Shown piece after piece: positions 1,934 through 28,778 of a DNA stretch of 64,000 nucleotides. Each line of letters opens with the position of its first letter. Within the stretch, counting starts at the first letter, position 1. Origin of the DNA: Rhizobiales bacterium Y(2018) (GTDB lineage Bacteria > Pseudomonadota > Alphaproteobacteria > Rhizobiales > Aestuariivirgaceae); assembly GCA_005502925.1 (NCBI GenBank), contig SCPD01000015.1, positions 123,462 to 187,461 on the forward strand. The letters run 5' to 3'. The notes below the pieces were generated by a model, which was not told the DNA's origin, made no database searches, and saw only the letters and a list, made by a program, of their open reading frames with translations. The position numbers were made by a program, and so were the translations under genes.

Positions 1934-2869
1934 TCAGCGCCGCTCTTCGCGTACGAAGGGTGTGCCGAGCGACGCCGGCTGGCCGGTGCGCGGTGAGCGC
2001 AGCAGAGCGGCCCAGATCATCACCGCGAGCGTGGCGACATAAGGCGTCATCAGCATGAAATATTGCGGCACCTGGATGCCGGCGGCGGCGATGCGTGGAA
2101 TGAGCGCCTCGATGCAGCCGAACAGCACAGCGCCGGCCAAGGCCCGCCAGGGCTGCCAGCGCGCGAAGATCACCAGCGCGATCGCGATCCAGCCGCGCCC
2201 GCCCGCCATGCCGTCGACCCAGATCTTGGCGACGCCGACCGACAGATAAGCGCCCGCCAGCCCGATCAGCGCCGCGCCGCACAGCACCGCACCGAAACGA
2301 TAGAGCCCGACATTCACGCCCGCGGCATCGGCGGCGTCCGGATTTTCTCCAACCGCCTTGAGCCTGAGTCCCAGAAGCGACCGGGTGGATACCCAGTGGA
2401 ACGCGATGAAAATCACGATCGTCGCATAGAAGACCGCGTCCTGATGGAAGAGCAGACGCCCGAGGACCGGCAATTCGGACAAGGGCCACAGCGCAATGGG
2501 GTCCAGGCCGGAAATCGGCCGGTTCGTCCAGCCTTGCTGCGTCGAGATCAGGCTCGTCAGCCCCTGGCAGAGAAACACCATGCTCAGGCCGGCGATGATC
2601 TGATCGACCCGCAGCACCACGACGAGAAAGGCGAAGATGAGCGAGACCAGCGCCGCCGCCAGCATCGCGGCGAGAAGCGCCAGCAGCGGATGGCCGCCCA
2701 TGACGATGAGAGCCCCTGCTCCGGTCATCGCGCCGACCAGCATGAAGCCCTCGGCGCCGAGAAACAGGACGCCGGATTTTTCCGCCACAATGAGACCGAG
2801 CGCCGCCAAGGCGAAGGGAACGGCGAAGGCGGGCGAGACGACGAGCCAGTTGAGGATGAAGTCGGCCAT
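1934..2869 (-). CDS. ABC transporter permease (BMP/nucleoside-type importer, second permease)
   Basis: Inner-membrane permease of 311 residues with about eight to nine hydrophobic segments (SPAFAVPFALAALGLIVAE at the start). It belongs to the branched-chain permease (BPD_transp_2) fold, in the subgroup that partners BMP-type binding proteins. The ATG at MADFILNW is two bases from the stop of the preceding permease, as expected for coupled translation. It is the last gene of the unit that begins with the molybdenum hydroxylase (10500). The substrate is probably a nucleoside, nucleobase or similar heterocycle, inferred from the binding-protein type. Confidence 0.87.
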   Translation of the reverse strand: MADFILNWLVVSPAFAVPFALAALGLIVAEKSGVLFLGAEGFMLVGAMTGAGALIVMGGHPLLALLAAMLAAALVSLIFAFLVVVLRVDQIIAGLSMVFLCQGLTSLISTQQGWTNRPISGLDPIALWPLSELPVLGRLLFHQDAVFYATIVIFIAFHWVSTRSLLGLRLKAVGENPDAADAAGVNVGLYRFGAVLCGAALIGLAGAYLSVGVAKIWVDGMAGGRGWIAIALVIFARWQPWRALAGAVLFGCIEALIPRIAAAGIQVPQYFMLMTPYVATLAVMIWAALLRSPRTGQPASLGTPFVREERR

Positions 2870-2871
2870 GT

Positions 2872-3978
2872 CTACCTCGTCCACTTCAGCCGGTGGCGGA
2901 TGAAGAACTCGGCCGCGGCCACCGAGATGACCACGATGGCCTGGATCAGCTGCACGATCGCGCCGGGGATCTGGTAGAAGACCTGCAGGCTCTGCCCGGC
3001 GACGAAGAGAATGGCGACGAAAAAGGCGACGATGATCACGCCGATCGGATTGTTGCGGGCGAGGAAGGCGATGAGGATGCCGGAGAAGCCGTAGCCGAAG
3101 AAGAATGATTGTGTCATCCGGTACTCGATGCCGGCGCTGATCGCGAAGCCGGCCACACCCGCCAGAGCCCCCGACAGCAGCGCCGCCGCGCAGGTGACGC
3201 CCAGCACCGGTATGCCGATGGCTTTCGCCATCTTGGGGTTCGCATGCACGAAGCGGGTGAAGAAGCCGAACCGGCTGATATTGAGGGCCCACCACAAGAG
3301 GAGTGCCAGCAGCAAGGCCAATGGCAGGGCCAGGGTGACATTCTCCCAGCCGAGCGGACTGAGCCGCTCAATGGCGTCATATTGCTCGGAATGCGGGAAA
3401 CTGCTCTTCGGATCCTGCCAGCTGCCATACAGAAGATGGAGAAGGAAGTTGAGCGCGACATAGTTGAGAAGCAGCGTGGAAACGACCTCGCTGATGCCGA
3501 GCTTCAGCTTGAGCGCGACGGGAACGAAGATCCAGCCCATGCCGCCCAGCGCGGCGGCCATCAGCATCACGACGAGGCGCAGCGCCGGCGGCCCGAAATC
3601 GGTGATGGCCACGAGGGTAGCGGCAATCGAGCCGAAGATCATCTGCCCTTCGATGCCGATATTCCAGAACCGTACCCGGAAGGCGACACAAGCGGCGAGC
3701 CCTGCAATCAGGAGCGGCGCCATTTGGATGAGGACGCTAGCCACGCTCCGGCTGTCCGAGAAGATCGCATAGACGAACTCATTGGCGAGATTGCCGAGGC
3801 CGACGCCCGCCCAGGCGAGGATGGCCACGGAGATCGCGAGACCGATCAGCAGACCCGCGCCGCGGATCAGGATCTTTTGCCCCGCCGGGCTCGTCTGCCG
3901 GATCTCGACCGTCATCCGGCCGGGTCGGCGGGAGGGCGCGGGCATTGCCGCATCGAGCGCGACAATTGGCTCAGCCAT
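2872..3978 (-). CDS. ABC transporter permease (BMP/nucleoside-type importer, first permease)
   Basis: Inner-membrane permease of about 368 residues with multiple hydrophobic segments after a short polar N-terminus. The central EGQMIFGSIAAT segment is typical of the YufP/NupP-like permeases that accompany BMP binding proteins. The start at MAEPIV overlaps the end of the ATPase gene by 8 bases; an upstream ATG would add 16 residues overlapping the ATPase further. It works with the ATPase at 3971-5473, the permease at 1934-2869 and the binding protein at 5498-6583. Confidence 0.87.
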   Translation of the reverse strand: MAEPIVALDAAMPAPSRRPGRMTVEIRQTSPAGQKILIRGAGLLIGLAISVAILAWAGVGLGNLANEFVYAIFSDSRSVASVLIQMAPLLIAGLAACVAFRVRFWNIGIEGQMIFGSIAATLVAITDFGPPALRLVVMLMAAALGGMGWIFVPVALKLKLGISEVVSTLLLNYVALNFLLHLLYGSWQDPKSSFPHSEQYDAIERLSPLGWENVTLALPLALLLALLLWWALNISRFGFFTRFVHANPKMAKAIGIPVLGVTCAAALLSGALAGVAGFAISAGIEYRMTQSFFFGYGFSGILIAFLARNNPIGVIIVAFFVAILFVAGQSLQVFYQIPGAIVQLIQAIVVISVAAAEFFIRHRLKWTR

Positions 3979-5473
3979 GACTGACCATGGCCTCTCCCAC
4001 CGCCTGACGGTCGGCGGGTGCTGCAAATTCGGCCACCAGCCTGCCGCGGTTCATGACACCGATGCGATCGGCAAGCAGCAGGATCTCGTCGAGATCCTCG
4101 CTGATGAGCAGGATGCCGGCGCCGCCGTCACGTGCCGACCGCAACCGCGCATGGACTGCGGCGGCGGCCCGCACATCGAGACCGCGGCTTGGACTGTGGG
4201 CCAGGATCACCCGCGGCGCGCCGGCGAATTCGCGGGCAATCACGAGCTTCTGCGCATTGCCGCCGGACAGCAGCGCCGCTTTATGCGCGAGGCTGCGCAC
4301 GCCTTGCACGTCATGCGCGGCGACTGCCACACCGGCGGCCGATTGTGCCACCGACGACTTCATGCGCAGGACACCGCCATATTTGCCGGAATAGACATCG
4401 CCGATCGCGTAGTTGTCGGCGATCGAGAGTTCGCTGGCCAGACCGTAGGAATGCCGGTCCGCCGGGATGACAGCCAGGCCCTTGGCGCGCCGCGTCTTTG
4501 GCGCGGCATGTGTTATGTTGACCGTCTCTTCCAGCATGATCCGCCCGGCGGCCGCGGTGGCGACTCCCATGAGGATCTCGGCCAGCTCGGTCTGGCCGTT
4601 GCCGCCGACACCGGCGAGACCATAGATCTCACCGCTGCAAATCCGCAATGTCACATCGCTCAGCGTCTCGCGCCGGCCATTGCCGCCGCTGCTGACGCTA
4701 GTGAGGGAAAGAACCGGTGCGCCGACATTCTGCGCCGGAGCCGCGCATTCGGTCGTGGTGGTGCCGACCACCAGCTTCGTAAGCTCGCCGGCGTTAAGCG
4801 TCCCGGGGGTGGCGGTGGCGATGGTCTTGCCGTTGCGCATGACGGTCAGCCGATCGGCATGGCGCATGACATCGCCGAGCTTATGCGTGACGAGGATGAC
4901 CGCCGCGCCCTCGCTGGCGAGATGGCGCAGCATCGCCAGCAACCTCTCGGCTTCCATATCGGTGAGCACCGCGGTCGGCTCATCGAGGATGAGGAGCCGC
5001 GCGCCACCGACCAGCATTTTCAGAATCTCGACACGCTGCTGCTCGGCGATGGAAAGCGCCCCCACCGGTTTCGTCAGATCGACGGTGAAACCGATACTGT
5101 CGGCGAGGCGGGCAAGCGCGGTGTCGATCGTGGCGCGGCCGCGCGCGAAACCGCCTTCCGGATTGGCCAGGAGGATGTTCTCGAGCGCCGAGAAGCTCTT
5201 CACCAGCTTGTAATGCTGATGGACCATGCCGATGCCTAAGCGCCGCGCATCGAGCGGCCCTCCGATGCGCACCGGACGGCCCTGCACGCGGATGGTGCCT
5301 TCATCCGGCGCATAGAGGCCGGCGACGATATTCATGAGCGAGGACTTGCCGGCGCCATTCTCACCCAGCAGGGCATGGACTTCACCGCTGCGAACGTCGA
5401 GATCCGCAGCGGCGATGGCGCGAAAGCCGTCGAATGACTTGGATATGCCCGAAAGCTCGAGAGCCGAAGTCAT
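3971..5473 (-). CDS. ABC transporter ATP-binding protein, two nucleotide-binding domains
   Basis: A 500-residue double ATPase of the sugar/nucleoside (MglA/RbsA/YufO) type. Domain 1 has Walker A GENGAGKSS, signature LSIAEQQRVEI and Walker B LLILDEPTAVL. Domain 2 is degenerate as usual in this family: the Walker A position reads GVGGNGQTE, the signature is LSGGNAQKLVIAREF and the Walker B region is VILAHSPSRGLD. A GTG four codons upstream is an alternative start. The gene follows the binding-protein gene by 24 bases and overlaps the next permease gene. Confidence 0.92.
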   Translation of the reverse strand: MTSALELSGISKSFDGFRAIAAADLDVRSGEVHALLGENGAGKSSLMNIVAGLYAPDEGTIRVQGRPVRIGGPLDARRLGIGMVHQHYKLVKSFSALENILLANPEGGFARGRATIDTALARLADSIGFTVDLTKPVGALSIAEQQRVEILKMLVGGARLLILDEPTAVLTDMEAERLLAMLRHLASEGAAVILVTHKLGDVMRHADRLTVMRNGKTIATATPGTLNAGELTKLVVGTTTTECAAPAQNVGAPVLSLTSVSSGGNGRRETLSDVTLRICSGEIYGLAGVGGNGQTELAEILMGVATAAAGRIMLEETVNITHAAPKTRRAKGLAVIPADRHSYGLASELSIADNYAIGDVYSGKYGGVLRMKSSVAQSAAGVAVAAHDVQGVRSLAHKAALLSGGNAQKLVIAREFAGAPRVILAHSPSRGLDVRAAAAVHARLRSARDGGAGILLISEDLDEILLLADRIGVMNRGRLVAEFAAPADRQAVGEAMVSHG

Positions 5474-5497
5474 CAGATTGTCCACACAGAGGGGCCG

Positions 5498-6583
5498 TCA
5501 CTTCTGACTGATGACGCCCTTGACGAACCAATCCATTTTCCACAGATCGGCATCCGACAGCACTTGTCCCGCCGGGACACGTTCCTTGCCGTCGCGATCG
5601 GCGAGCGGACCGGCATAGACCTGCTTGCCGTTCACGATCGCGTCGCGCTCGGCGGTGATCTTGTCGGCCGCGTCTTTCGGCACCGCGTCACCGCAGCAGG
5701 CGATGTCGGTACCGCCGTCCTTGATCGACAGGAAGGCGCCATAGGCAGGCGGCGTCCAGTCACCGGCGATGATCTTCTTGATCTCCGGGTCGAGAAAACG
5801 ATCCCAGACCCAGACCGAGGAGCATTGTGTCGCTTTCGGCGCGAATTCACGCAGGTCGCGGTGATGGCCGGTCGCGTAGACACCCTTCTCCTGGGCGACG
5901 ATCTGTGTCGCCGGCGTGTCGACATGCTGGCCGATGACGTCGATGCCCTGCTCGATCAGCGCTTCCGCCGCGGCCCGCTCCTTGACCGGATCGTTCCAGG
6001 CGCCCGTATAGATCACGGTGACGGTTGCATTGGGATTGATCTGCTGGGCGCCCAGCGCATAGGCGTTCACCGTCCAGTTCACGAGCCCGAAGGGATTGGC
6101 CGCCACGAAGCCGAGCTTGCCTGATTTCGAGGCCGCACCGGCGGCCATGCCGCACAGATACTGGCTTTCATAGGTGCGCCCATAGAAGGATTCGAGATTG
6201 GGCCCGTTGGTGATGCCCGCCGGATTGAGGAAGGCGACCTCCGGATACTTCTCCGACAGCTCCTTGAACGTGTCGGAATAGCCGAAAGCCGAGCCGATGA
6301 TGATGTTGAAGCCGCGGCTGATCAGCAATTCCACCGCCGGCCTGATCGCCGTGGCGTTTTCCGGCACGTTCTCCACCACCGGGATCTTGACGCCCATCGA
6401 CGCCTCCAGGCGCTGGCGCGCCTCGTCGAGCGCCTGCGACCAGCCGCCGTCATTCTTCTGGGTGAAGATGACGAGCGCGATCTTGGGCTCGCCATTGAGC
6501 TTGAACGCCGCCATTGCCGGCAGAGCCGACAAGCCGACTAAGGCCAGTCCGAAGGCGAGAAGTCTCAATATATGTCGTGTCAT
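5498..6583 (-). CDS. BMP-family ABC substrate-binding protein (PnrA-like)
   Basis: Periplasmic binding protein of 361 residues with a signal peptide (MTRHILRLLAFGLALVGLSALPAMA). There is no lipobox Cys. The mature chain matches the basic membrane protein family: IALVIFTQKNDGGWSQA near the start, then IIIGSAFGYSD, FLNPAG and TGAWNDPVKERAAAEALI. Characterised members of this family bind purine or pyrimidine nucleosides. A strong ribosome-binding site (AAGGAAGGACAGG) precedes the ATG. The 105-bp gap to the molybdenum hydroxylase gene holds two small hairpins but no T-run for this strand, so read-through from the hydroxylase unit is likely. Confidence 0.9.
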   Translation of the reverse strand: MTRHILRLLAFGLALVGLSALPAMAAFKLNGEPKIALVIFTQKNDGGWSQALDEARQRLEASMGVKIPVVENVPENATAIRPAVELLISRGFNIIIGSAFGYSDTFKELSEKYPEVAFLNPAGITNGPNLESFYGRTYESQYLCGMAAGAASKSGKLGFVAANPFGLVNWTVNAYALGAQQINPNATVTVIYTGAWNDPVKERAAAEALIEQGIDVIGQHVDTPATQIVAQEKGVYATGHHRDLREFAPKATQCSSVWVWDRFLDPEIKKIIAGDWTPPAYGAFLSIKDGGTDIACCGDAVPKDAADKITAERDAIVNGKQVYAGPLADRDGKERVPAGQVLSDADLWKMDWFVKGVISQK

Positions 6584-6688: not shown

Positions 6689-9076
6689 TCAGGCGGCGTC
6701 GAGCGCCGCGTGAATCATGCTGGGTGTGATCGGGGTATGCCGGAATGTTCCGCCGCCCAGCGCTTTCAACGCATCTTCCACCCCCGAGGCGACCACGGCG
6801 CCGACCGCGATGCAGCCCGCCTCGCCGACACCCTTCACGCCGAGCGCGTTGAGCGGCGATGGTGTCTCGAGATGGTGGATTTCGACATCGGGAATCTCGG
6901 TCGCATAGGGGACGAGGAAATCGACAAAATTGGCGTTGAGCATATTGCCGGTCTCGTCGAACTCGATCCGCTCATACATGGCGCCGCCGAGCCCTTGCGC
7001 GATACCGCCCATGACCTGGCCTTCGACGATCATCGGATTGATCATGTTGCCGCAGTCATGGATGCAGACATATTTGCGGATGGTCACGCTGCACAGTTCC
7101 GGATCGACCTCGATGAGGGCGCCATGCACGCCATAGGCCCAGGTGGCGCAGGGCGGGCTGTAATAATCAGTAGCTTCGAGACCGGGATGCTCGCCCTCAT
7201 CCAGCGAGGGGCCGTCATGACGGCTCGCCGGCGCGAACTGGGTCGCCGCCTGTGCCGCCTCGTTGAAGGCATAACGCAGCGGATTGGTCGCCGTGGCGAC
7301 CGCCGATAACGGCACTTTGCGGTCGGTGCCTTTGATCCACGCGGCGCCGTCCTTGAGCTCGACGTCGCCGACATCGGCCTCCAGCATGTTGGCGGCCGCC
7401 TGGAGCGCCTTGCGCTTGACGATCATCGCCGATTTGTGGATGGCATTGCCCGAAACCACCGCGGCGCGGCTGGCGAAGGTGGCCACACCCCAGTCGAAGG
7501 CCTTGGTGTCGCCTTCGACCAGGATCACGTCTTCGGGCTTCACACCCAGCTGATCGGCGGCGATCTGCGCGAAGACCGTGTCATGCCCCTGCCCTTGCGA
7601 AGTCAGGCCGGTATTCACATAGACCTTGCCGGTGATCGGATGAATGCGGACATGTCCGCCTTCGTAAGGCCCAAGCCCGGTGCCTTCGACATAGAAGGCG
7701 AGACCGAGGCCGAGATGTTTGCCCTCGGCGCGCGCTTTGGCCTGCTCGGCAGCGAATGAGGGGGCATCGAGCCGCTCCTCCATCATCGCCAGCGCCTTGT
7801 GATACTGGCCGCTGTCCAGGCTCACTTTCAGGCCATCGGCGAAGATCAGCCCTTCGCGATCGTACGGAAACTCATGGTCGGCGATGAGATTGCGCCGGCG
7901 GATCTCGAAGCGGTCGAGGCCCAATTCGTCGGCGAGCTGATCCATCGCGCGCTCGATCGCGAAACAGGCTTGCGGGCGACCACAGCCACGATAGGGCGTG
8001 ACCGGCACGGTCGGCGTGTAGATGGCCTTGAACTCGACCCAGATATTCGGAATGCGATAGGGGCCGGCGATCGAGGTCGACGCGACCTGCGCCACGGCGA
8101 TGCCATAGGGGATGAAGGCGCCGGTGTCGTGCAGGAAGCTGTCGCGCAGCGCGATCACCTCGCCCGTCTTTTTGGCATAGAGCTCCATGAAGTGGATCTG
8201 GGTGCGCTCCTGCGAGGAGCCGACGAAGTTCTCGCGCCGGTCCTCGATATATTTCACCGGCCGCCCCAGCTGCATCGCCGCCATAGGCACCAAGAGCTCG
8301 TCGGGATAGAACAGCAGCACCTTCTGCCCGAAACCGCCGCCGACATTGGGCGCAATGACCCGGACTTTGTCCTCGTCGAGCTTGAAGATGGAGGCGAGGC
8401 CGCCGCGCACCGAGATCGGCGCCTGGGTTCCGTCCCACACGGTGAGCTCGCCCGTCACTTCGTCGAACTGGGCCGCGACGGCGCGGCATTCCATCGGCGC
8501 CGCGGTGGAACGGTCGACCTGCACGCGGATCTTGGTCACATGCTCGGCCTGGGCGATCGCGCTGTCGGGATAGCCGCAGACCTGCACGAAATGGGCGGCG
8601 ACATTACGTTCATGTGTGTCGTGCACCAATGGCGCATCATCGAGGATCGCTTTCTCCAGGTCGATCTCGACGTCACGCGGATCATAGTCGACATCGACGA
8701 GGGCCGCGGCATCCTCCGCCGTATAGCGGTCGACCGCGACGACCATCGCCACCGTCTGTCCGACATAATAAACATCGTCGCGCGCCAGCGGCCGCTGGGT
8801 GCGCGCATCATGCATGGAGGAATGCGGGATGAGCAGCGGCATCTCGATATCGAGCGGCCCGACATTGTCGCATGTATAGACTGCGGCGACGCCCGGATGC
8901 GCCACCGCCGCCGAGATGTCGATGGAGTTGATGCGGGCCCGCGCGAAGGGGCTGCGCACGAAGGCCACATGCAGCGCCTGGGCAAGCGGAATATCGTCGA
9001 TGAAGGAGCCTTCCCCGCGCAACAGCTGGGGATCGATATTGCGCTTGATCCGGGCACCGAACAGTCGTGTCGACAT
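6689..9076 (-). CDS. Molybdenum hydroxylase large subunit (xanthine dehydrogenase / CoxL family)
   Basis: About 795 residues, molybdopterin-cytosine-dinucleotide-binding subunit of an XDH-family hydroxylase. The N-terminal aldehyde-oxidase a/b hammerhead region begins GARIKRNIDPQLLRGEGSF. The core has NVGGGFGQK, and the active-site loop reads YRGCGRPQA rather than the AYRCSFR loop of true CO dehydrogenase. The catalytic Glu lies in KGVGEAG (about residue 752). It therefore probably hydroxylates a heterocycle or aldehyde at a carbon, not CO. The ATG at MSTRLFG lies 5 bases after the 2Fe-2S subunit stop. Substrate not determined; the context suggests a pyrimidine-like ring. Confidence 0.92.
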   Translation of the reverse strand: MSTRLFGARIKRNIDPQLLRGEGSFIDDIPLAQALHVAFVRSPFARARINSIDISAAVAHPGVAAVYTCDNVGPLDIEMPLLIPHSSMHDARTQRPLARDDVYYVGQTVAMVVAVDRYTAEDAAALVDVDYDPRDVEIDLEKAILDDAPLVHDTHERNVAAHFVQVCGYPDSAIAQAEHVTKIRVQVDRSTAAPMECRAVAAQFDEVTGELTVWDGTQAPISVRGGLASIFKLDEDKVRVIAPNVGGGFGQKVLLFYPDELLVPMAAMQLGRPVKYIEDRRENFVGSSQERTQIHFMELYAKKTGEVIALRDSFLHDTGAFIPYGIAVAQVASTSIAGPYRIPNIWVEFKAIYTPTVPVTPYRGCGRPQACFAIERAMDQLADELGLDRFEIRRRNLIADHEFPYDREGLIFADGLKVSLDSGQYHKALAMMEERLDAPSFAAEQAKARAEGKHLGLGLAFYVEGTGLGPYEGGHVRIHPITGKVYVNTGLTSQGQGHDTVFAQIAADQLGVKPEDVILVEGDTKAFDWGVATFASRAAVVSGNAIHKSAMIVKRKALQAAANMLEADVGDVELKDGAAWIKGTDRKVPLSAVATATNPLRYAFNEAAQAATQFAPASRHDGPSLDEGEHPGLEATDYYSPPCATWAYGVHGALIEVDPELCSVTIRKYVCIHDCGNMINPMIVEGQVMGGIAQGLGGAMYERIEFDETGNMLNANFVDFLVPYATEIPDVEIHHLETPSPLNALGVKGVGEAGCIAVGAVVASGVEDALKALGGGTFRHTPITPSMIHAALDAA

Positions 9077-9081
9077 GGGGG

Positions 9082-9624
<543 letters not shown>

Positions 9625-9636: not shown

Positions 9637-10500
9637 CTATTGCGCCCGCGCCGCGGCTTTTTCCACCGCGCGGCGGACGAGCGAAGCGAAAAGATGCTTG
9701 CGATAGCCGGCGGTGGCATGCATGTCGCCCGGCGCCGTCACGACGGCGCAGGCCGCGTCGCCGGCGGCTTTGATATCGGCGGCGGTGAGCCGGGTGCCGG
9801 CAAGGATCTGCTCGGCGGCGAAAAGGCGCAGCGGCTTCGAGGAAACGCCGCAGGCGGCCAGCGCCACGGTGGCGACGGCACCGGCGCCGTTGCGCGTCAG
9901 GATGCAGCCTGCCGCGGCGATGGCATAGTCGCCATGGCGGCGCGTGAACTCCTCGAAGGCGAAGCCGGCACCCGGCGGCAGAACGGGAAATTGCGCTTCC
10001 ACCACCATCTCGTCCGGCTGGCGCGATGTCGTCATGTGAAACTGGAAGAAATCCTGAGCGGCGATCTCGCGCCGGCCATCCGATCCCGCCACCAGCACGC
10101 TGCCGCCGGTGAGCACGAGGATCATCGGCATCTCGGCGGCGGCATCGGCATGACAGAGGCTGCCGACAACGGTGCCGCGATTGCGGATCGGGATATGGGC
10201 GACATGACCGAGAGCCGCGCGCAGAACCGGGTTGGCGGCGGCGGCGCCGTCATGCAACTCGACCTCGCGGTGACGCGCCATGGCGCCGACGGCGATCTTG
10301 CCGTTGCCGACGGTGATATGCGCGAGGCCTGGAATGTTCTGGATGTCGATCAGGCGCGACGGGCTGGCGAGGCGCATATTCATCGCCGGGATCAGGCTCT
10401 GTCCGCCGGCCAGGATCATGGCCCCCGAATCTTCCTTCAGCAGAGAGATCGCCTCATCCACCGAGCGCGGCGCCACATAGTCGAACAGGGAAGGCTTCAC
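9637..10500 (-). CDS. Molybdenum hydroxylase FAD subunit (CoxM-type)
   Basis: A 287-residue FAD-binding medium subunit. It has the first FAD-binding loop AGGQSLIPAMNMRLA (about residues 31-45) and the second, TVVGSLCHADAAAEMP, followed by the C-terminal CO-dehydrogenase flavoprotein domain. It passes electrons from the 2Fe-2S subunit to an acceptor. It is the first gene of the unit, with the regulatory element at 10630-10661 about 130 bases upstream. Confidence 0.94.
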   Translation of the reverse strand: MKPSLFDYVAPRSVDEAISLLKEDSGAMILAGGQSLIPAMNMRLASPSRLIDIQNIPGLAHITVGNGKIAVGAMARHREVELHDGAAAANPVLRAALGHVAHIPIRNRGTVVGSLCHADAAAEMPMILVLTGGSVLVAGSDGRREIAAQDFFQFHMTTSRQPDEMVVEAQFPVLPPGAGFAFEEFTRRHGDYAIAAAGCILTRNGAGAVATVALAACGVSSKPLRLFAAEQILAGTRLTAADIKAAGDAACAVVTAPGDMHATAGYRKHLFASLVRRAVEKAAARAQ

Positions 10501-10629
10501 GGGCGCACCTCCCGCCTGCTGCCGCGGGATCTCGGTGAGATCCCGGATGTCGCCATGTTCCGCTGCGAAGCCATTTTCGGCACTGCGTTTCCCCGGCTAT
10601 GGAGGCTCTTCGAGGAGCCTTCGTGTTTT

Positions 10630-10661
10630 ATCCACATAATGGATATGATATCGAATATGAT
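10630..10661. promoter_or_regulatory. Candidate IclR operator, site A (molybdenum hydroxylase unit)
   Basis: ATCCA-CATAA-TGGAT (10630-10644) followed by ATGATATCGAATATGAT. It matches sites at 13050, 22648 and 28784 in the same orientation. It lies between the end of the EamA transporter gene and the start of the FAD subunit gene. Assignment to the IclR protein at 13164 is inference from shared occurrence. Confidence 0.6.
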
Positions 10662-13021: not shown

Positions 13022-13049
13022 GCGCCCTCTCCTCCACAAGCCTACTGGC

Positions 13050-13088
13050 ATCCGATGAGCGGATAGAGTATATGCTATTTGAATATCG
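13050..13088. promoter_or_regulatory. Candidate IclR operator, site B (regulator/amidase intergenic)
   Basis: ATCCG-ATGAG-CGGAT (13050-13064) followed by AGAGTATATGCTATTTGAATATC. The half sites differ from the others by one compensated base pair (A/T to G/C), which supports a real dyad. It lies between the divergent amidase and IclR genes, so it would allow autoregulation. Confidence 0.55.
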
Positions 13089-22629: not shown

Positions 22630-22647
22630 TTTTTACCCGCCTCCAAT

Positions 22648-22684
22648 ATCCATATAGTGGATACGATATTCATATTATGCACAT
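22648..22684. promoter_or_regulatory. Candidate IclR operator, site D (hyuA unit)
   Basis: ATCCA-TATAG-TGGAT (22648-22662), then ACGATATTCATATTATGCACATG. The 22-base core ATCCATATAG plus TGGATACGATAT is identical to site E at 28784, about 6 kb away. It lies immediately upstream of the hyuA ribosome-binding site, a position suited to repression. Confidence 0.65.
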
Positions 22685-22751: not shown

Positions 22752-24005
22752 TCACCGCGCCGTCCAGACGCTTCCTTCCACACCGCCCACCAGCCGGCCG
22801 TTTTTGATATGCACGCGCCGGCCGGGAAGATTGCGGAACATATCGACGAGATTGGCCGCCGAATGCACGACAAGGTCGGCGCGCCCGCCAATGCCGGCCC
22901 GGTGGTCGGTCAGTCCCATGAGCCGCGCCGGGCGCGATGTCGTCATGTCGAAGGCCTCGCGCACTTCCGCATCGCTGCGCATGCCGGTGCTCAGGCAGGT
23001 CATATAGGCGGTGTCGACGGGATCCATGCGGTTGAACCTGAACCAGATGTCGAACATGTTGTCGGCGCCGGCGCAGACATTGACGCCCGCCGCCAGCAGC
23101 TCCTTGGCCCGCGAGGAGCCGCGATTGATCGGTGTCGCCCCGTCGCCGCCGAGCATCTGCAGATTGGCGATCGGCAGGATCGTCACGCTCATATCGGCCG
23201 CTTTGACCTTGTCGATCACGCGTTTGGCTTCATCGTCCGGATAGACCGCGAGAGCGCAGCAGTGACCGGCGGTGACCTTGCCTTGATAGCCGCGCTCGAC
23301 GGTCATGTCGGCCACCATTTCCAGCGTCTTGTAAGGCGCCAGATCGGTGTAGTCGCAGTGGAAGTCGATCGGCACTCCGCGTTCCATCGCAATGTCGAAA
23401 ATGGTGCGGATATGGGTCCTCTGGTCCGCGAGGGAACGCTCGAATTCCGGCAGGCCGCCGACCAGTGTCGCCCCCATGCCGAGCGCCGCGCGCAACAGCG
23501 CCGGCGCCTCCGGATCGGTGACGATGCCCTCTTGCGGGAAAGCGACGATCTCGAGATCGATGAGGTTGTGGAAGCGCTCCTGCGCCCTGAGCACGCCTTC
23601 CAGCGAGACGAGCCTGGTGGCGAAGTCCACATCGACCTGCGTACGGATGCGCCCTATTCCCTGCGCCACGGCCAGGTCGAGCGCGCTGCACACACGCGCC
23701 TCGACATCGGCCACGGTGAAATTCTGCTTCGCCTCGCGCGCCCGCGCAAAGGCCTCTTGATAGGAGATCGCACCGACATAATTGCGCGACAGGACCTTGT
23801 CGAGATGGAAATGCGGATCGATGAAGCTCGCCGTGACGAGCCCCCCTTGCGCATCCACGGTACGGGCGGCGGCACCACCGATATGCGCGGCGATCTCCAC
23901 GATGCGGCCGCCGGTGATCGCGATATCGCAGATGTCTTCGCGATCGAGGAGTCGTGCTTTCCTGATAAGCAGGTCGTGGGAGCCGGTGGCCGGTTGAGCT
24001 GACAT
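22752..24005 (-). CDS. Cytosine-deaminase-like amidohydrolase
   Basis: A 417-residue metal-dependent amidohydrolase. Metal ligands follow the CodA pattern: DPHFHLDK (His65, His67), FHCDYTD (His216), AGHCCA (His248) and the Asp in GADNMFD. The catalytic Glu that follows HCD in cytosine deaminase (HCDE) is Tyr219 here; the codons read CAC TGC GAC TAC. Deamination by the usual route is therefore doubtful, and a ring-opening or amide-hydrolysing role is possible. It is the last gene of the branched-chain-type importer unit, 15 bases after the ATPase. Confidence 0.88.
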   Translation of the reverse strand: MSAQPATGSHDLLIRKARLLDREDICDIAITGGRIVEIAAHIGGAAARTVDAQGGLVTASFIDPHFHLDKVLSRNYVGAISYQEAFARAREAKQNFTVADVEARVCSALDLAVAQGIGRIRTQVDVDFATRLVSLEGVLRAQERFHNLIDLEIVAFPQEGIVTDPEAPALLRAALGMGATLVGGLPEFERSLADQRTHIRTIFDIAMERGVPIDFHCDYTDLAPYKTLEMVADMTVERGYQGKVTAGHCCALAVYPDDEAKRVIDKVKAADMSVTILPIANLQMLGGDGATPINRGSSRAKELLAAGVNVCAGADNMFDIWFRFNRMDPVDTAYMTCLSTGMRSDAEVREAFDMTTSRPARLMGLTDHRAGIGGRADLVVHSAANLVDMFRNLPGRRVHIKNGRLVGGVEGSVWTAR

Positions 24006-24020: not shown

Positions 24021-24725
24021 TTAAGATCCCAGATAGGCCTTGATGACCTGCGGATCGCGCCGCACCTCCTGCGGCGGACCGGAGGCGATCACCTTGCCTT
24101 CGCTGAGCACGACCACCCGGTCGCAGACATTCATGATGACATTGAGATCATGATCGATAATGACGATGCCGCATCCCCGGCGCCGCCTGATGGCCTGCAC
24201 GATCGTGACGATCTCTTCCGATTCGCCGTGATTGAGCCCTGCCGTCGGCTCGTCGAGCAGCAGGAACTCCAGCTTGCCGGCGATGGCGCGGGCGATCTCG
24301 AGCCGGCGCTGCATGCCATAAGCGAGCTCGGTGGCCATGCGATCGCGGTGCTGGGTGAAATGCAGCTCGTCCAACGCGTTCAGCGCATTTTCCCGCCGGT
24401 CGCCTGTGCCGAGCCAGGCCGAGGCCACTTCGACGGTTTCGAGCACAGTCAAAGAATTGAAGAGCCGGATATTCTGGAACGTCCGGCGGATGCCGCGCCG
24501 CGCCGCATCGCGCAGCGAAATTTTGGACCAGATCTCAGCGCCCATGCTGAAGCTACCGCTGGTCGGCGAATAAACGCCGGATGTCACATTGAGGAGCGTC
24601 GTCTTGCCGGACCCGTTGGGACCGATCAGGCCGACGATCTCGCCTTTGGCGACCTCCAGGCTGACCCCGTCAAGGGCGGTGAGGCCCTTGAATTTCATGA
24701 CTACATCGCTCGCCTTGAAGTTCAT
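24021..24725 (-). CDS. ABC transporter ATP-binding protein, LivG-type
   Basis: A 234-residue cytoplasmic ATPase with Walker A GPNGSGKTTLL, signature LAYGMQRRLEIARA (a LivG-type variant of LSGGQ), Walker B LLLDEPTAGLN and the H-loop His in IIDHDLNVI. The chosen ATG (MNFKASDVV) has GCGGAAG just upstream; a longer frame would overlap the binding-protein gene. Fifth gene of the importer unit; the partner ATPase is at 28008-28778. Confidence 0.93.
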   Translation of the reverse strand: MNFKASDVVMKFKGLTALDGVSLEVAKGEIVGLIGPNGSGKTTLLNVTSGVYSPTSGSFSMGAEIWSKISLRDAARRGIRRTFQNIRLFNSLTVLETVEVASAWLGTGDRRENALNALDELHFTQHRDRMATELAYGMQRRLEIARAIAGKLEFLLLDEPTAGLNHGESEEIVTIVQAIRRRRGCGIVIIDHDLNVIMNVCDRVVVLSEGKVIASGPPQEVRRDPQVIKAYLGS

Positions 24726-24784: not shown

Positions 24785-24793
24785 GCGCCAGAG

Positions 24794-25984
24794 TCATTTC
24801 ACCGGCGGGAACTTCTGCGGAAATCCGACTTCCACGACGACGAATTTGCGGTTGGCGCGATCGAAGGTCACCACCGCATAGTCCTTCTTGGGGATCCCGC
24901 GTCCGATCGGGCTGTTCTTGTAGGAGATGAGACCGGTGGCGCCGGCGACATTCTCGACATTATCCAGGGCATCGCGCACCGCCGCCCCTTCCGTCGATCC
25001 GGCAGCTTCCACCGCCGCGGCGACGCTGACGACCAGATCATAACCGAGCGCGGTCTGCAGCGATTCAGGATCAGCGCCGAATTTCGCCCGGTATTCCTTC
25101 TCGAAAGTCTCGAAAGCCGAACCCGGCGTCCGGTTGCCGCCATAGGTCGTCATCGCCGAAATGTCGAGCTGGCCGCCAGCATCGAATATGACCGGCGTGT
25201 CGTTGCCATCGACCATGATGATCGGCTTGGTGTTGCCCAGCCTCTCCAGATCCTTGAGAAAGGCCGTCGTATCGGGCGGGAATGTGTTGGTCATGATCAC
25301 GTCGGCATCGGAGCTCGCCATCTTGGTCGCGGTGACCCGATAGCTGCTGTCGCCCAGTGTGTAATAGGCCTCGCCGACGATCTCGCCGCCGAGCTCGCGG
25401 AAGCGCTCTTCGAACGCGACTCCGAGCGTGTGTGTATAGCCTTCACTCTTCGATTTCAGCGTGAAGGCCTTCTTATATCCCTTCTTGGCCGCGTATTCCG
25501 CCAGCATGGCGCCCTGGGTCAGCGTGCCCGGCACATTGAGGAAGCCGAAACCGCCCGGCACCTGGCTCGGTCCGGCGGCATCGGCGCCGCAGCTGCTGAT
25601 GACCGGAAGCGAGGCCTTGGCGGCCATCTGCGCGCCCGGCAGCGAAACGTCCGTGTCGCAGGTCGTGACGATGAAATTCGCACCGGCGGCGATCAGCTCC
25701 TGGACGACGGTGGCGCCGAGCATGGGATCCGATTTCATGTCGCGCCGGTCGAGCTCGATCTTCACTTTGCCGGCGATGCCGCCCTTGGCATTGATCTCCT
25801 CGATCGCGATCTCCATGCCTTTGGCGAGCGGCTCGTCGACAAAGGACAGATAGTTCGATTTGTCCGACGCCCAGCCGATCTTGTAGACCGTGCCCGGCTT
25901 CAATTCGGCTGCGGCGCCTAACGGCCACAGCATCAGGGCCGCGGCGGCCGTCATCAAGGCAATGCGTTTCATTCTTATGTTCAT
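24794..25984 (-). CDS. ABC transporter substrate-binding protein, type 1 (branched-chain amino acid/amide family)
   Basis: A 396-residue periplasmic protein with a signal peptide (MKRIALMTAAAALMLWPLGAAA). The mature chain has the Peripla_BP_6 pattern: GMEIAIEEINAKGGIAG, DPMLGATVVQELI and ISSCGADAAG. The family binds branched-chain amino acids, urea, short amides and aromatic acids. Its place in a unit with an amidohydrolase, under the same dyad as the hydantoinase genes, suggests a cyclic or linear amide rather than leucine (inference). Confidence 0.92.
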   Translation of the reverse strand: MNIRMKRIALMTAAAALMLWPLGAAAELKPGTVYKIGWASDKSNYLSFVDEPLAKGMEIAIEEINAKGGIAGKVKIELDRRDMKSDPMLGATVVQELIAAGANFIVTTCDTDVSLPGAQMAAKASLPVISSCGADAAGPSQVPGGFGFLNVPGTLTQGAMLAEYAAKKGYKKAFTLKSKSEGYTHTLGVAFEERFRELGGEIVGEAYYTLGDSSYRVTATKMASSDADVIMTNTFPPDTTAFLKDLERLGNTKPIIMVDGNDTPVIFDAGGQLDISAMTTYGGNRTPGSAFETFEKEYRAKFGADPESLQTALGYDLVVSVAAAVEAAGSTEGAAVRDALDNVENVAGATGLISYKNSPIGRGIPKKDYAVVTFDRANRKFVVVEVGFPQKFPPVK

Positions 25985-26014: not shown

Positions 26015-27112
26015 TCAGGCTGCCGGGTTGCGCTCCCGATCTTTTTCGAATGGCAGTGCGGTGCCGTTTGCAGCCGGCCGCCGTTTCGCCAGCCAGCGCG
26101 CGGTCAGATCATCGAGCTCCCAGCGCCCGACCAGGCCCTGCGGCCGCATTGTCAAGGTGAAGACGATCAGCAGCGCCAGCACCGCGGTGGTGAGTCCGGG
26201 CGCCTCGCTCAAGCTGAAGGAACCCAGTGAAAAGCCGTTTTCGAGGCGACGCAGCGCCTCCGCCAGAATGGTGATGAGCAAGGTCCCGACGATCGCGCCG
26301 GTGATCGACTGGCCGCCGACGATGACCATCGTGACGACGAGGAAGGTCAGCTCGAAATGGAACGCCTTGGGCAGGATGGCGCCGATATAGTGAGCATAGA
26401 GAGCGCCGGCGACGGCCGAACAGGCAGCGCTTGCAACCCACATGACATAGCGGCTGTTGACGACGTCGACACCCGAGGCCTGCGCGGCGATCGCGTCGTC
26501 ACGGCTGCTGCGCAGGCCGAGGCCGGTATCCGACTCGCGCAGAAGCCGCGCGATCACCAGGATCACCGCGAAGGCACCCATGCACCATCCCATCGTCGTA
26601 TAGGCCGGTATGCCGCTGAAGGCCTTGGCGCCGCGTGTCCATTCTTCCGCATTCGAAAGCACGGTGAAGACCATGACCATGAAGCCGAGTGTCGCCACCG
26701 CCGCAGCCGACCCGCCGAGCCGGACGAAGACGCGGCCGATGACCGCGGCGACCATTGCCGCTACGCCGACGCCGATGAGCATCGCCGGCAGGAAACCCAT
26801 GGCGGAGGTCAGGATGAAGTCCGGCGCATTCGGGATCCCCATCGCCTTGATGGCGGGATCGGCGGTGAAAAGCGCCGATCCATAGGCGCCCAGCGCCATG
26901 AACCCGACATGGCCGAAGGAGATGATGCCGGATGTGCCGGTATAGATCTGCAGGCCTATCGCGGCGATGAGATTGATGAGGAACACCGTCAGGATGCGCT
27001 GATCGGTGGAAGAGCCAAGCAGGCTGACGGCGGCCACAAGAAGGCTCACCAGCACGAGGATCTGGGCCGATCCGATAAGGGCGCGCAGCCACCATTTTTG
27101 CGACATTGCCAT
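26015..27112 (-). CDS. ABC transporter permease, LivM-type
   Basis: A 365-residue inner-membrane permease with about ten hydrophobic segments. The LivM signatures GTSGIISFGHVGFMALGAY and LRSSRDDAIAAQASGVDV are present. The ATG shares one base with the stop of the LivH-type gene (TGATG), which indicates translational coupling; a second ATG lies two codons downstream. Confidence 0.93.
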   Translation of the reverse strand: MAMSQKWWLRALIGSAQILVLVSLLVAAVSLLGSSTDQRILTVFLINLIAAIGLQIYTGTSGIISFGHVGFMALGAYGSALFTADPAIKAMGIPNAPDFILTSAMGFLPAMLIGVGVAAMVAAVIGRVFVRLGGSAAAVATLGFMVMVFTVLSNAEEWTRGAKAFSGIPAYTTMGWCMGAFAVILVIARLLRESDTGLGLRSSRDDAIAAQASGVDVVNSRYVMWVASAACSAVAGALYAHYIGAILPKAFHFELTFLVVTMVIVGGQSITGAIVGTLLITILAEALRRLENGFSLGSFSLSEAPGLTTAVLALLIVFTLTMRPQGLVGRWELDDLTARWLAKRRPAANGTALPFEKDRERNPAA

Positions 27113-28005
27113 CACACCCGTAGATCTTCCGTCATGCGCACGCCGAAGAGCCCGCCAGGCCGCCATCTGAGCAGAATGATCGCGATGCCGAAGACGATTG
27201 CGTCGAGATACGGGCTGAGGCTGTTGGACAGGATGGCGTCACTGCCGACTTCGAGAAAGGCGAGCAGGAAACCGCCGACGACCGCTGCCGGCAGACTGCC
27301 CAGCCCCCCGATGACGCAGGCGATGAAGCCTTTGAGCATGGGCTCGAAGCCCGATGAGGGAACGACATTCGGCACGGTCGCGAAATAGAACAGCGCGGCA
27401 ATGCCGGCGAGCGCCCCCGACAGCATGAAAGCGCCCACGACCACCGCATTGGCTTTGATGCCCATGAGTCGGGTGGTGCGGAAGTCGTCGGCGGCGGAGC
27501 GCAGCGCCAGGCCGATCACCGTCTTCTTGAGGAACAGATGGAGCGAGAGCACGATCAGCCCCGTGATCACGATGATGAAGACGTCGAGCCACTGGACGCG
27601 CAACTGCCCGATGCGGAAGCCGGCATCGACGAAGGCCGGCAGCTCGATGCCCTTGGGCCGCGCGCCGAAGAACAGCAGGAACAGGCTCTGCAGCGCGACG
27701 GAGACCGCGAAGGAGGTGATGAGAAGGGTCAGCGGATTGGCCGATCTGAGCCGGCGATAGGCGAGGCGTTCGAGCAGCAGCGCCGCTATGACCGAGGCCG
27801 CGATGGCGGCCAGGGCGGCGAGGAACCAATGCACGCCGGCAAGCAGTGTCGCATAGAGCGTATAGCCCGCGACCGTCATGAGTTCGCCATGAGCGAAATT
27901 CGCCAGCCGCAGGATACTGAACACGATGGCGACGCCGAGCGCCACCAATGCATAGATCGATCCGAGCGATACGGCATTGATGAATTGTTGAAGCATCAAT
28001 TCCAT
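27112..28005 (-). CDS. ABC transporter permease, LivH-type
   Basis: A 297-residue inner-membrane permease. The N-terminal segment LQQFINAVSLGSIYALVALG and the motif LRLANFAHGELMTVAGY are typical of LivH. The EAA-like loop RSAADDFRTTRLMGI and the C-terminal SLPAAVVGG region are intact. I chose the ATG with GGAGCGTGACC upstream; a GTG two codons earlier overlaps the LivF-type stop. Confidence 0.93.
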   Translation of the reverse strand: MELMLQQFINAVSLGSIYALVALGVAIVFSILRLANFAHGELMTVAGYTLYATLLAGVHWFLAALAAIAASVIAALLLERLAYRRLRSANPLTLLITSFAVSVALQSLFLLFFGARPKGIELPAFVDAGFRIGQLRVQWLDVFIIVITGLIVLSLHLFLKKTVIGLALRSAADDFRTTRLMGIKANAVVVGAFMLSGALAGIAALFYFATVPNVVPSSGFEPMLKGFIACVIGGLGSLPAAVVGGFLLAFLEVGSDAILSNSLSPYLDAIVFGIAIILLRWRPGGLFGVRMTEDLRV

Positions 28006-28007
28006 GG

Positions 28008-28778
28008 TCACGCTCCAGCCGTTCCGAGATAGGCGTTTTCGATCGCGCTCGCCTGAAGATCGGCCGCCCTTCCGGCCGCTTCGACCACTCCATTCGACAT
28101 CACATAACCCCGATCGGCGATCTTCAGGGCGCGTTCGGCATTCTGCTCGACCAGCAGGATCGTCACCTTGCGGCGGCGCAGTTCCTCGATGATCTCGAAA
28201 ACACGATTGACGATGATCGGCGCCAGTCCGAGCGAGGGTTCATCGAGCAGCAGCAGACGTGGACGTCCGACCAGCGCTCGCGCAATGGCGACCTGCTGCT
28301 GTTCACCGCCCGACAGGAGGCCTGCTTGTGAATCGGCGCGTTTGCGCAGGATGGGGAAGAGATCGTGCAGACGTTCGAATTCGCGTTCGAATTCGGCTGG
28401 CCTGAGCGCCGCGCCGCCCAACCTCAGATTCTCCCGGACGGTCATGTTGGAGAACAGGCGGCGGCCCTCGGGAACCAGCGAGATGCCGGAACGCACGATC
28501 ATTTCGGTGCTTTTGCGTGTTATATCGTGGCCTTCGAAGGTGATGCTGCCGCCGACGCGCGGCGACAATCCGACGATGGCGTTGAGCATGCTGGACTTGC
28601 CCGCGCCATTGGCGCCGAGAAGAACGACGATCTCACCGGCGGCGACTTCGAGGTCGAGATTGCGCACCGCCTCGACCGCGCCGTAGGCCACCGCGAGCCC
28701 CGTGGCCCTGAGAATGACGTCAGCCGCCGGGTTTGCCGGGCTGGCTGAGCTGTCTTTCTGGTTCCCCAGGCTGGACAT
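28008..28778 (-). CDS. ABC transporter ATP-binding protein, LivF-type
   Basis: A 256-residue ATPase and first gene of the importer unit. Walker A is GANGAGKSS, the signature LLSGGEQQQVAIARA and Walker B LLLLDEPSLGLAP. The EGRRLFSNMTVRENLRLGG segment is a LivF hallmark. The N-terminus carries about 20 extra Ser/Ala-rich residues. Candidate site E begins only six bases upstream of the ATG and covers the expected ribosome-binding region, so translation or transcription from here may be tightly controlled. Confidence 0.92.
   Translation of the reverse strand: MSSLGNQKDSSASPANPAADVILRATGLAVAYGAVEAVRNLDLEVAAGEIVVLLGANGAGKSSMLNAIVGLSPRVGGSITFEGHDITRKSTEMIVRSGISLVPEGRRLFSNMTVRENLRLGGAALRPAEFEREFERLHDLFPILRKRADSQAGLLSGGEQQQVAIARALVGRPRLLLLDEPSLGLAPIIVNRVFEIIEELRRRKVTILLVEQNAERALKIADRGYVMSNGVVEAAGRAADLQASAIENAYLGTAGA

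Follow-up and report, generated by a model that had tools for sequence, protein, structure and literature searches.

The 22 genes at positions 1934-28778 of the window (the whole 64-kb stretch of DNA analysed here) bring together a molybdenum hydroxylase, HyuA/HyuB proteins and malonate genes, raising the question of which nitrogen heterocycle is broken down and by which enzyme its ring is opened. Profile scans of 20 of the 22 proteins (18 against Pfam; livG and livF against NCBIfam alone, below its cut-offs) agree with the families assigned in a preliminary description of the locus (Table 1). LivM and livH were outside the scans and were identified from matches in locus L009 (98-99%) and in Mesorhizobium sp. 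Root552 (72-82%) and from the flanking Liv genes. The borders given earlier are also right, being the end of perm2 and the start of livF. The sequences suggest an IclR regulon that may take up an N-heterocycle of the pyrimidine type and hydroxylate it, then open its ring through ATP-dependent HyuA/HyuB in barbiturase's stead and convert malonate to acetyl-CoA, a reading for which we find belief and doubt evenly balanced.

Table 1. Genes and operator-like sites of the cluster (window positions; shuffles are those that reached the match).
Feature	Positions	Strand	Basis
perm2, permease of BMP/PnrA-type importer	1934..2869	-	PF02653
perm1, permease of BMP/PnrA-type importer	2872..3978	-	PF02653
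ABC ATPase of BMP/PnrA-type importer	3971..5485	-	PF00005, two stretches
BMP/PnrA-like binding protein	5498..6583	-	PF02608; 6pi5 E 2.8e-61
coxL, molybdenum hydroxylase large subunit	6689..9076	-	PF02738/PF20256; NF040766 988.7 bits (cut-off 950); motifs
coxS, [2Fe-2S] subunit	9082..9624	-	PF01799
coxM, FAD subunit	9637..10500	-	PF00941/PF03450
Predicted operator TATCC-N7-GGATA, exact, ahead of coxM	10629..10645	.	pattern searches; 0/500 shuffles
EamA exporter	10695..11606	-	PF00892
Amidase-signature hydrolase, candidate ureidomalonate hydrolase	11603..13021	-	PF01425; Lys-Ser-Ser motifs
Operator-like site, one mismatch, amidase/iclR gap	13049..13065	.	12/500 shuffles
IclR-family regulator	13164..13973	+	PF01614/PF09339
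Creatininase-family hydrolase	13982..14761	-	PF02633; TIGR04448 107.6 bits (cut-off 235); NGNRPN motif
Weak operator-like site, two mismatches, creatininase-like/matA gap	14811..14827	.	34/500 shuffles
matA, malonyl-CoA decarboxylase	14914..16344	+	PF05292/PF17408
matB, malonyl-CoA synthetase	16341..17885	+	NF005702 806.6 bits (cut-off 558)
coxG, CoxG-like helper of hydroxylase	18011..18607	-	PF06240
hyuB, hydantoinase B / oxoprolinase subunit	18668..20563	-	PF02538; nearest solved 7hk5
hyuA, hydantoinase A / oxoprolinase subunit	20578..22629	-	PF01968/PF05378/PF19278; nearest solved 7hk5, then 6yra
Predicted operator TATCC-N7-GGATA, exact, ahead of hyuA	22647..22663	.	pattern searches; 0/500 shuffles
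CodA/AtzC-like amidohydrolase	22752..24005	-	PF07969; K-Q-Y-H-N-W active-site set; model pLDDT 90.3
livG, ATPase of second importer	24021..24725	-	NCBIfam LivG best, below cut-off
livK, Liv-type binding protein	24794..25984	-	PF13458
livM, permease	26015..27112	-	ORF; 98% in L009, 72% in Root552
livH, permease	27112..28005	-	ORF; 99% in L009, 82% in Root552
livF, ATPase	28008..28778	-	NCBIfam LivF best, below cut-off
Operator-like site, one mismatch, ahead of livF	28783..28799	.	15/500 shuffles

The shared dyad noted earlier proved real. A 25-base repeat occurs four times in the window (starts 10627, 14809, 22645 and 28781), and searches with the dyad as a 23-base pattern, allowing up to three mismatches, found three matches in 7.1 Mb, all inside the cluster; the reversed pattern found none in the same 7.1 Mb. 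Besides the two exact copies of TATCC-N7-GGATA, less perfect ones lie ahead of livF and in two further gaps (Table 1). CoxG and the BMP gene, both of which sit within longer gene runs, have no such site in front of them. Four of the five control stretches gave nothing (3-4 mismatches), and the fifth (790-1933) contains a one-mismatch copy at 837, reached by 0 of 100 shuffles. The same operator is exact ahead of livF and hyuA in Root552, and ahead of hyuA and, directly, matB in genome G079; the IclR proteins of these genomes are 52% and 51% identical to the window protein, respectively. The IclR-family regulator is the likely binder of this operator. At the sequence level the single regulon proposed before is supported, and the 22 genes are likely to be under common IclR control.

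This core, consisting of IclR, the creatininase-like and CodA-like proteins, HyuA/HyuB, the molybdenum hydroxylase, the amidase, MatA and MatB, recurs in Root552 and G079. The Root552 locus has a molybdenum hydroxylase and counterparts of hyuA (77% identity), hyuB (82%), the CodA-like (77%) and creatininase-like (78%) genes, the amidase (63%), matB (57%), matA (49%) and livFHMKG (68-82%). The corresponding values in G079, which also has a molybdenum hydroxylase, are 68% for hyuA, 70% for hyuB, 65% for the CodA-like protein, 68% for the creatininase-like protein, 53% for the amidase, 54% for matB, 50% for matA and 45-46% for the BMP-type permeases and ATPase. Neither of these loci showed EamA or coxG; liv genes were not seen in that of G079, nor BMP genes in that of Root552.

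Among the features sought for an oxidative pyrimidine pathway, malonate handling to acetyl-CoA is represented by matA and matB. All four genomes with the full set (G000, which contains the window, G079, G398 and G400, one being a near copy of the window genome) have one malonyl-CoA decarboxylase gene, inside the cluster. Among known ring systems, the C4-C5-C6 part of pyrimidine would be the most direct source of malonate, and malonate as the end product, as put forward in the preliminary description, is supported as likely. Alternatively, a malonate/malonamate utilisation module, for which the malonamidase E2 of rhizobia is the model, might merely lie beside a separate heterocycle module. The amidase, MatA and MatB do occur together, and their genes are consecutive in G079 in the order matB-matA-amidase. 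However, many other amidases match the window amidase better than malonamidase E2, a distant match (E about 1e-14), and the mat genes of G079 have the same operator as hyuA. Separate control of the malonate genes, or their conservation without the rest, had been named beforehand as speaking against a common pathway; instead, matB of G079 is preceded by an exact operator, and all four genomes have their sole decarboxylase within the cluster. We therefore regard two adjacent modules as highly improbable.

As described in PMC3758960, the oxidative pyrimidine pathway employs uracil/thymine dehydrogenase, barbiturase (Bar) and ureidomalonase, ends in malonate, and is rare, with AtzD/Bar homologues in 3% of surveyed genomes. 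The cluster resembles that pathway in oxidation, ring opening, amide hydrolysis and the predicted malonate end product, whereas its genomes have no AtzD/Bar-fold match, contain HyuA/HyuB and a creatininase-like protein instead, and, in the window, add their own MatA/MatB and the shared operator. The search for an AtzD/TrzD-type barbiturase suggested earlier gave no PF09663 match in G000, with the control genomes silent, and none in G079, G398 and G400; the same search was positive in G397, G399 and G401. Barbiturase loci of three other genomes (L081, L026 and L074) combine a CodA-like gene with an amidase matching the window's at 41%, joined by a Cox-type hydroxylase at L081 and a malonyl-CoA decarboxylase at L026, the latter gene sitting where L016 and L081 have none. 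Their ring-openers have 62-67% identity to 5hwe, a barbiturase of solved structure, with which they agree at four of five signature positions; the NCBIfam name of those at L026 and L074 is cyanuric acid hydrolase, against the Bar signature. Compared with these loci, HyuA/HyuB holds the place of barbiturase. Of the two replacements considered before, HyuA/HyuB is the supported candidate, and the role of the CodA-like protein is refined below.

To our knowledge, AtzD/Bar is the only enzyme family known for this ring-opening step, and we know of no HyuA/HyuB member that opens barbiturate. Barbiturase works without ATP. Like the ATP-dependent N-methylhydantoinase and caprolactamase, the window proteins have both subunits with HyuA and HyuB domains over their full lengths, but they fall below the caprolactamase CapAB cut-offs (NF050156 and NF050157, 511.2 and 224.4 bits vs. 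1000). The family has many paralogues, with 10 HyuB in G000. Because of the conserved core, the shared operator, the single decarboxylase and the lack of a barbiturase match, malonate as the end product and HyuA/HyuB as the putative ring opener are both well motivated. In genome G687, hyuA, hyuB and the CodA-like gene form a single run (66, 72 and 61%) adjoining an M24-family gene. The ORFs called in 35 kb there gave a second HyuAB and BMP-type genes as the sole related matches, with no mat, creatininase-like, IclR, amidase or hydroxylase match, and no malonyl-CoA decarboxylase was found genome-wide. The presence of HyuAB and the CodA-like protein without this decarboxylase counts against a simple form of the pathway.

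The nearest folds to the predicted model of the CodA-like protein are AtzC (N-isopropylammelide isopropylaminohydrolase; model-based TM 0.86, Foldseek E 1e-33) and CodA (model-based TM 0.88-0.90). Equivalents of AtzC Lys65, Gln160, His249, Asn304 and Trp309, active-site residues given in PMC4577212, are all present at 28-29% identity, whereas AtzC His219, which corresponds to CodA Glu217, is Tyr. CodA, of the same superfamily, is nearer by sequence score (190 vs. 163 bits) and has the metal ligands, Gln156, His246 and Trp319 in common with the window protein, but its Thr66, Glu217 and Asp314 are replaced by Lys, Tyr and Asn. This Tyr is found in 120 of 120 listed homologues (the best 120 of 1125), among which at least 15 are automatically named cytosine deaminase and one cytosine/creatinine deaminase. 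Because of the Tyr, the protein is unlikely to deaminate cytosine or creatinine. Genome G401 carries a barbiturase at L074, a locus that also contains a creatininase-family gene of low similarity (26%). A CodA-like gene of the Tyr type occurs at another place in the same genome (L011) with no hyuAB alongside; thus, this type does not exclude barbiturase.

CodA-like, HyuAB and creatininase-family proteins are also the classic set for creatinine and N-methylhydantoin, in which the CodA-like protein would deaminate creatinine, HyuAB open N-methylhydantoin and the amidase cleave N-carbamoylsarcosine, with the creatininase-like protein as a side entry; the one homologue named for creatinine fits this route. 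However, it has no use for the hydroxylase or for MatA and MatB, all of them conserved across the three lineages, and no sarcosine-forming or sarcosine-oxidising family was found among the 20 scanned proteins. The creatininase-like protein has the family domain with Glu, His and Asp of the first motifs, but scores far below the creatininase equivalog TIGR04448, and the metal-binding His of NGHxxN is Asn in the window and in 120 of 120 listed homologues. Together with the Tyr, these differences make a creatinine route very doubtful. Many of these 120 homologues are named creatinine amidohydrolase, and Hyphomicrobium, Methylobacterium and Aminobacter have relatives at 75-86%.

The slot of the hydroxylase is conserved and its type is not, being Cox-type in the window and XDH-type in Root552 and G079; these two genomes have a further XdhB above the cut-off outside the cluster. 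CoxL has a YRGCGR loop and GVGEAG; CSFR, the active-site loop of form I CO dehydrogenase, is not present. In the XDH-type enzymes, the purine site retains its GGKE and Arg. The nearest solved relative of the BMP/PnrA-like binding protein is AtzT, which binds guanine and 2-hydroxyatrazine according to PMC6834077. By eye, its aromatic pair is kept, whereas Glu165 and both Asn are replaced. Dihydropyrimidinase over the cut-off and, by eye, preT/preA-like genes were found in G000, where a search for the reductive pathway had been suggested, and in Root552; G000 also has an ordinary CodA with its Glu elsewhere. Uracil and cytosine therefore have another route, and plain uracil, the substrate first envisaged, is unsupported. 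Since reductive genes are present, an unusual, amino- or alkylamino-substituted pyrimidine is likelier and is probably the substrate. The purine-site residues, the kinship to AtzT and the reductive genes would suit a different heterocycle (e.g. purine-like, triazine-like or N-methylated) giving malonate or a homologue, with HyuA/HyuB opening another lactam or ureide and barbiturate not an intermediate. A trimethylamine dehydrogenase-like flavin oxidoreductase (by eye), present near the Root552 cluster and next to a CodA-like gene in L012, also favours this. However, the direct derivation of malonate from pyrimidine, and the CodA-like gene and amidase common to barbiturase loci (with the hydroxylase in one), make a different ring rather unlikely.

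In the proposed pyrimidine route, the heterocycle would enter through the BMP and Liv importers and be oxygenated at a ring carbon by the molybdenum hydroxylase. The CodA/AtzC-like enzyme would then strip an amino or alkylamino group to give barbiturate or a close analogue, for which AtzC, removing such a group from a dioxo-triazine, is the model. HyuA would use ATP to activate the ring amide, and HyuB would finish the opening to a ureidomalonate-type acid, from which the amidase, whose family and PDB matches include biuret and allophanate hydrolases, would free malonate. The creatininase-like enzyme might hydrolyse an amide between these two steps, a guess. MatB would form malonyl-CoA and MatA acetyl-CoA. 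More tentatively, the oxidative pyrimidine pathway may have been built twice. In the version here, an AtzC-like deaminase clade (Lys-Gln-Tyr-His-Asn-Trp) would turn amino-pyrimidines into barbiturate for an ATP-driven HyuA/HyuB that replaces the ATP-independent 'Toblerone'-fold barbiturase; an altered creatininase would take part as well, all under one IclR operator common to three lineages.

The cluster is a predicted variant of the oxidative pyrimidine route with HyuA/HyuB instead of barbiturase. If HyuA/HyuB opens barbiturate-type rings with ATP, genomes free of barbiturase could still run the route, and genes automatically named cytosine deaminase or creatinine amidohydrolase would be misnamed. 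The defined operator offers a direct way to the inducer and hence the substrate. The CodA-like protein as query led to 18 loci, eight of which have a coxL-like match. Nucleobase-type permeases, named by eye, lie near the CodA-like gene in L014, L017, L020 and L021.

The cluster comprises 22 genes, whose starts are predicted, and lies on contig 6 of a 7.10 Mb genome of 37 contigs (G000). The families named in the preliminary description were recovered by Pfam for 18 proteins and by NCBIfam for two more, in scans covering all but livM and livH; MatB scored 806.6 against the malonyl-CoA synthase cut-off of 558 in NCBIfam. The likely transcription units are livF-H-M-K-G with the CodA-like gene, hyuA-hyuB-coxG, the creatininase-like gene, matA-matB, iclR, amidase-eamA, and coxM-S-L with the BMP-type importer. 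A plain CO dehydrogenase was rejected for coxL on the basis of its YRGCGR loop, and the amidase was rejected as a malonamidase E2 orthologue by sequence search. Ten HyuB genes are present in G000, in 10 places.

Features located in the window and in the compared loci (prefix L; positions without a prefix refer to the window)
Feature	Position	Strand	Remarks
Gene cluster	1934-28778		
Response-regulator gene	4-789		
Palindrome TGTATCC-N13-GGATACA	829-855		Upstream of the response-regulator gene; source of the window's only off-cluster operator-like match
Operator matches outside clusters	837; L075:10555; L072:17175		One mismatch; near chance level
Operator match in L071	6489 of L071		Off a cluster promoter or a second match there, as is 837 in the window
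Block directly after the cluster	28920-38123	-	MR_MLE enolase-type enzyme, M81/MlrC-family peptidase, oppBCDF-type importer and binding protein, DoeB-like deacylase
tRNA-Glu (ctc)	43895-43970	-	Sole tRNA detected in the window
Tyr-type CodA-like gene	L012:1500-6983		Stretch with adjoining TMADH-like flavin oxidoreductase, PuuE-like deacetylase and RidA-family genes (by eye)
Two divergent HyuAB sets of G687	L084:5330-13325 and onward		Each adjoining an M24-family gene, with a LysR gene between

Searching named genomes for the CodA-like protein yielded 18 loci, in which genes were called with a simple composition-based script that may miss short or oddly composed genes. Aestuariivirga sp. YIM B02566 (L009, 97%) has the same cluster, continuing into a second stretch (L077); MR_MLE, M81, oppF, oppD and part of oppC adjoin it there as well. 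The locus of Mesorhizobium sp. Root552 (G398; L010, 77%) carries liv genes, the CodA-like gene, a different hydroxylase, hyuAB, the creatininase-like gene, iclR and the amidase, and matB/matA occupy its opposite end. Among 397 genomes scanned at the order level, 124 match the CodA-like protein at 1e-60; own genome aside, only G079 (65%) exceeds 40% identity, the next being at 39%, and the one other same-genus genome in this sample has no match at that threshold. G079 has the core genes (IclR, creatininase-like, CodA-like, HyuA/HyuB, molybdenum hydroxylase, amidase, MatA and MatB) together with BMP-type permeases and an ATPase. The Root552 and G079 loci showed neither EamA nor coxG, the G079 locus no liv genes and the Root552 locus no BMP genes. 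G400, which is 97% like G000, was not counted as a separate lineage, and the same genes were met more than once in L063/L074, L069/L071, L026/L062 and L013/L061/L081. On plasmids, the CodA-like and HyuA proteins had matches only below 60% identity, and the creatininase-like protein had none at 1e-40. No paper describing this gene combination was found in the open-licence literature, in searches that included the creatinine route.

A 25-base repeat in four copies was picked out in the first 40 kb of the window. The shared dyad noticed earlier was confirmed genome-wide: a 23-base pattern with up to three mismatches has three matches, all in the cluster, and its reverse has none. Comparison with relatives trimmed the repeat to TATCC-N7-GGATA. 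In the window, exact copies of this operator precede coxM and hyuA, one-mismatch copies lie upstream of livF and between the amidase gene and iclR, and a two-mismatch copy lies between the creatininase-like gene and matA. Root552 has exact copies upstream of livF and hyuA and a two-mismatch copy between iclR and the amidase gene (22 of 500 shuffles), with none upstream of the creatininase-like gene. Exact copies in G079 lie upstream of hyuA (0 of 100 shuffles) and matB (2 of 500), with a one-mismatch copy between the CodA-like and creatininase-like genes (7 of 500). In 20 random sequences per stretch, matched in first-order composition, exact matches averaged 0.0 in each of the three cases (window, L010 and L071). 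When one mismatch was allowed, the matches numbered 5 vs. 1.0 at random in the window, 2 vs. 0.1 in L010 and 4 vs. 0.15 in L071; these counts include one match in the window and one in L071 that is off a cluster promoter or a second match there. At one mismatch, the operator is absent from the block directly after the cluster and from two stretches of G687. IclR is the likely binder of the putative operator, because each of the three clusters encodes an IclR protein 51-52% alike. The cluster is real and conserved and, judged from sequence, it looks co-regulated.

Profile searches found one MCD (malonyl-CoA decarboxylase, MatA) domain per genome in G000, G079, Root552 and G400, always inside the cluster. 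No other single finding speaks as strongly for malonate as the predicted end product as this sole, in-cluster MCD. A class-level scan of 385 genomes with the CodA-like protein at 1e-85 matched three, namely the own genome, G595 and G687. G595, apparently an assembly of L011 (same genes), has no hyuAB near its CodA-like gene and has split hydroxylase genes (25-30%) about 9 kb from it. G687 carries the run M24-family gene-hyuA-hyuB-CodA-like gene, with a second HyuAB and BMP-type genes close by; the ORFs called near its CodA-like gene gave no match to mat, creatininase-like, IclR, amidase or hydroxylase genes, and the whole genome has no malonyl-CoA decarboxylase. Thus, HyuAB and the CodA-like protein are the tightest unit, to which the malonate genes are tied in the three core lineages but not in G687. 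One of the M24-family genes of G687 was scanned and is DoeA/PepQ-type under the cut-offs; the other was named by eye.

The hydroxylase slot is filled differently: a Cox-type enzyme with CoxG in the window vs. XDH-type enzymes, above xanthine dehydrogenase cut-offs, in Root552 and G079. These two are 66% alike, compared with 52-59% to the other XdhB copies of G000, G400, Root552 and G079, each of which is kept outside the cluster, and 50% to the G687 copy. The GGKE and Arg motifs of the purine site, which contact the pyrimidine half of xanthine, are present in both, and this would suit a dioxopyrimidine as well as a purine. A purine xanthine dehydrogenase is less likely as the cluster enzyme, because each of the five genomes searched has an above-cut-off XdhB outside the cluster.

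HyuA/HyuB or the CodA-like protein had been proposed to take barbiturase's place, and a genome search with the AtzD/Bar profile PF09663 gave no match in G000 (control genomes of that search were also silent), G079, Root552 or G400; the identical search gave matches in G397, G399 and G401. L081 of G399 (the reverse of L013) carries coxM, coxS, coxL, barbiturase, an AtzB-like hydrolase, transport genes, a CodA-like gene and an amidase. L026 of G397, a stretch without hydroxylase, carries barbiturase, transport, CodA-like, amidase and MCD genes, and L074 of G401 two CodA-like genes, barbiturase and an amidase. NCBIfam labels the ring-openers of L026 and L074 cyanuric acid hydrolases. However, the L026 protein scores 506 bits to the solved barbiturase 5hwe vs. 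313 to the best cyanuric acid hydrolase, and in all eight rows examined (four distinct genes) the first four Bar positions read Asn, His, Lys and Val and the fifth reads Asp; the label was overturned on both grounds. The positions are those given for Bar in PMC3758960. Two further PF09663 matches in G397 (L065 and L066; 258 and 238 bits) failed the motif filter of this comparison. At 1e-20, the creatininase-like protein is present in G079, Root552 and G400 and has no match in G397, G399 or G401, and L074 has a distant relative (26%). Similar partners thus accompany barbiturase in one genome group and HyuAB with the creatininase-like protein in another, in a small sample of three barbiturase genomes and three independent HyuAB lineages.

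The metal ligands, Gln156, His246 and Trp319 of E. coli CodA are conserved in the CodA-like protein, which differs at Thr66 (Lys), Glu217 (Tyr) and Asp314 (Asn); the 1r9z row of this comparison is a D314S mutant, and L013, L027, L028, L059 and L080 were left out as repeats. Tyr occupies the 217 position in 8 of the 56 aligned rows (two being one gene), and relatives from barbiturase loci carry Glu there. Having Tyr is in itself compatible with barbiturase, because G401 has both barbiturase and a lone Tyr-type gene (L011). Among the best 120 of 1125 homologues, Tyr is invariant, Lys is found in 117 (3 gapped), and the third position is Asn in 109 and Ser in 11. AtzC has Lys65, His219 and Asn304 where the CodA-like protein has Lys, Tyr and Asn, and its H219A mutant is reported to remain active (PMC4577212). 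Sequence scores are 190 bits to CodA vs. 163 to AtzC, and the predicted model (pLDDT 90.3) matched both with near-equal structure-search scores. An ordinary cytosine deaminase was rejected, given Tyr for Glu217 and a Glu-keeping CodA elsewhere in G000. The outline of the preliminary description stood, with its cytosine-deaminase-like assignment refined to a member of a Tyr-type clade with AtzC-like features; by analogy, it may remove an amino or alkylamino group from a dioxo ring. Oxidoreductase and RidA genes similar to those of L012 occur close to the cluster of Root552 (L075). Glu-type CodA-like genes with molybdenum hydroxylase subunits occur in L014, L017, L020, L021 and L023 (Firmicutes, haloarchaea), with nucleobase-type permeases (by eye) in the first four and a KynB-like cyclase in L014, L020 and L021.

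In the creatininase-like protein (predicted model pLDDT 80), whose family also occurs in methylotrophs, the His of the NGHxxN motif is Asn, as in all of the best 120 of 510 homologues. The BMP-type binding protein, read by eye, retains an aromatic pair (Trp/Trp) from the guanine site of AtzT. It differs from the AtzT site described in PMC6834077 in Glu165 to Leu, Ser97 to Ala and Asn218/Asn220 to His/Asp.

The genomes were also searched for other pyrimidine routes. RutA is above cut-off in none of the five genomes searched, and G079 has no dihydropyrimidinase match at 1e-80. Plain uracil is not the obvious reason for G000 to retain 22 genes, since reductive pyrimidine genes are present; the route described earlier holds in outline, but its substrate is probably not plain uracil. 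Dihydropyrimidinase is above cut-off in G000 and Root552. The preT and preA genes (by eye) share its contig in G000, at a distance of about 16 kb, and lie no more than about 9 kb from it in Root552; the Glu-keeping CodA of G000 adjoins preT.
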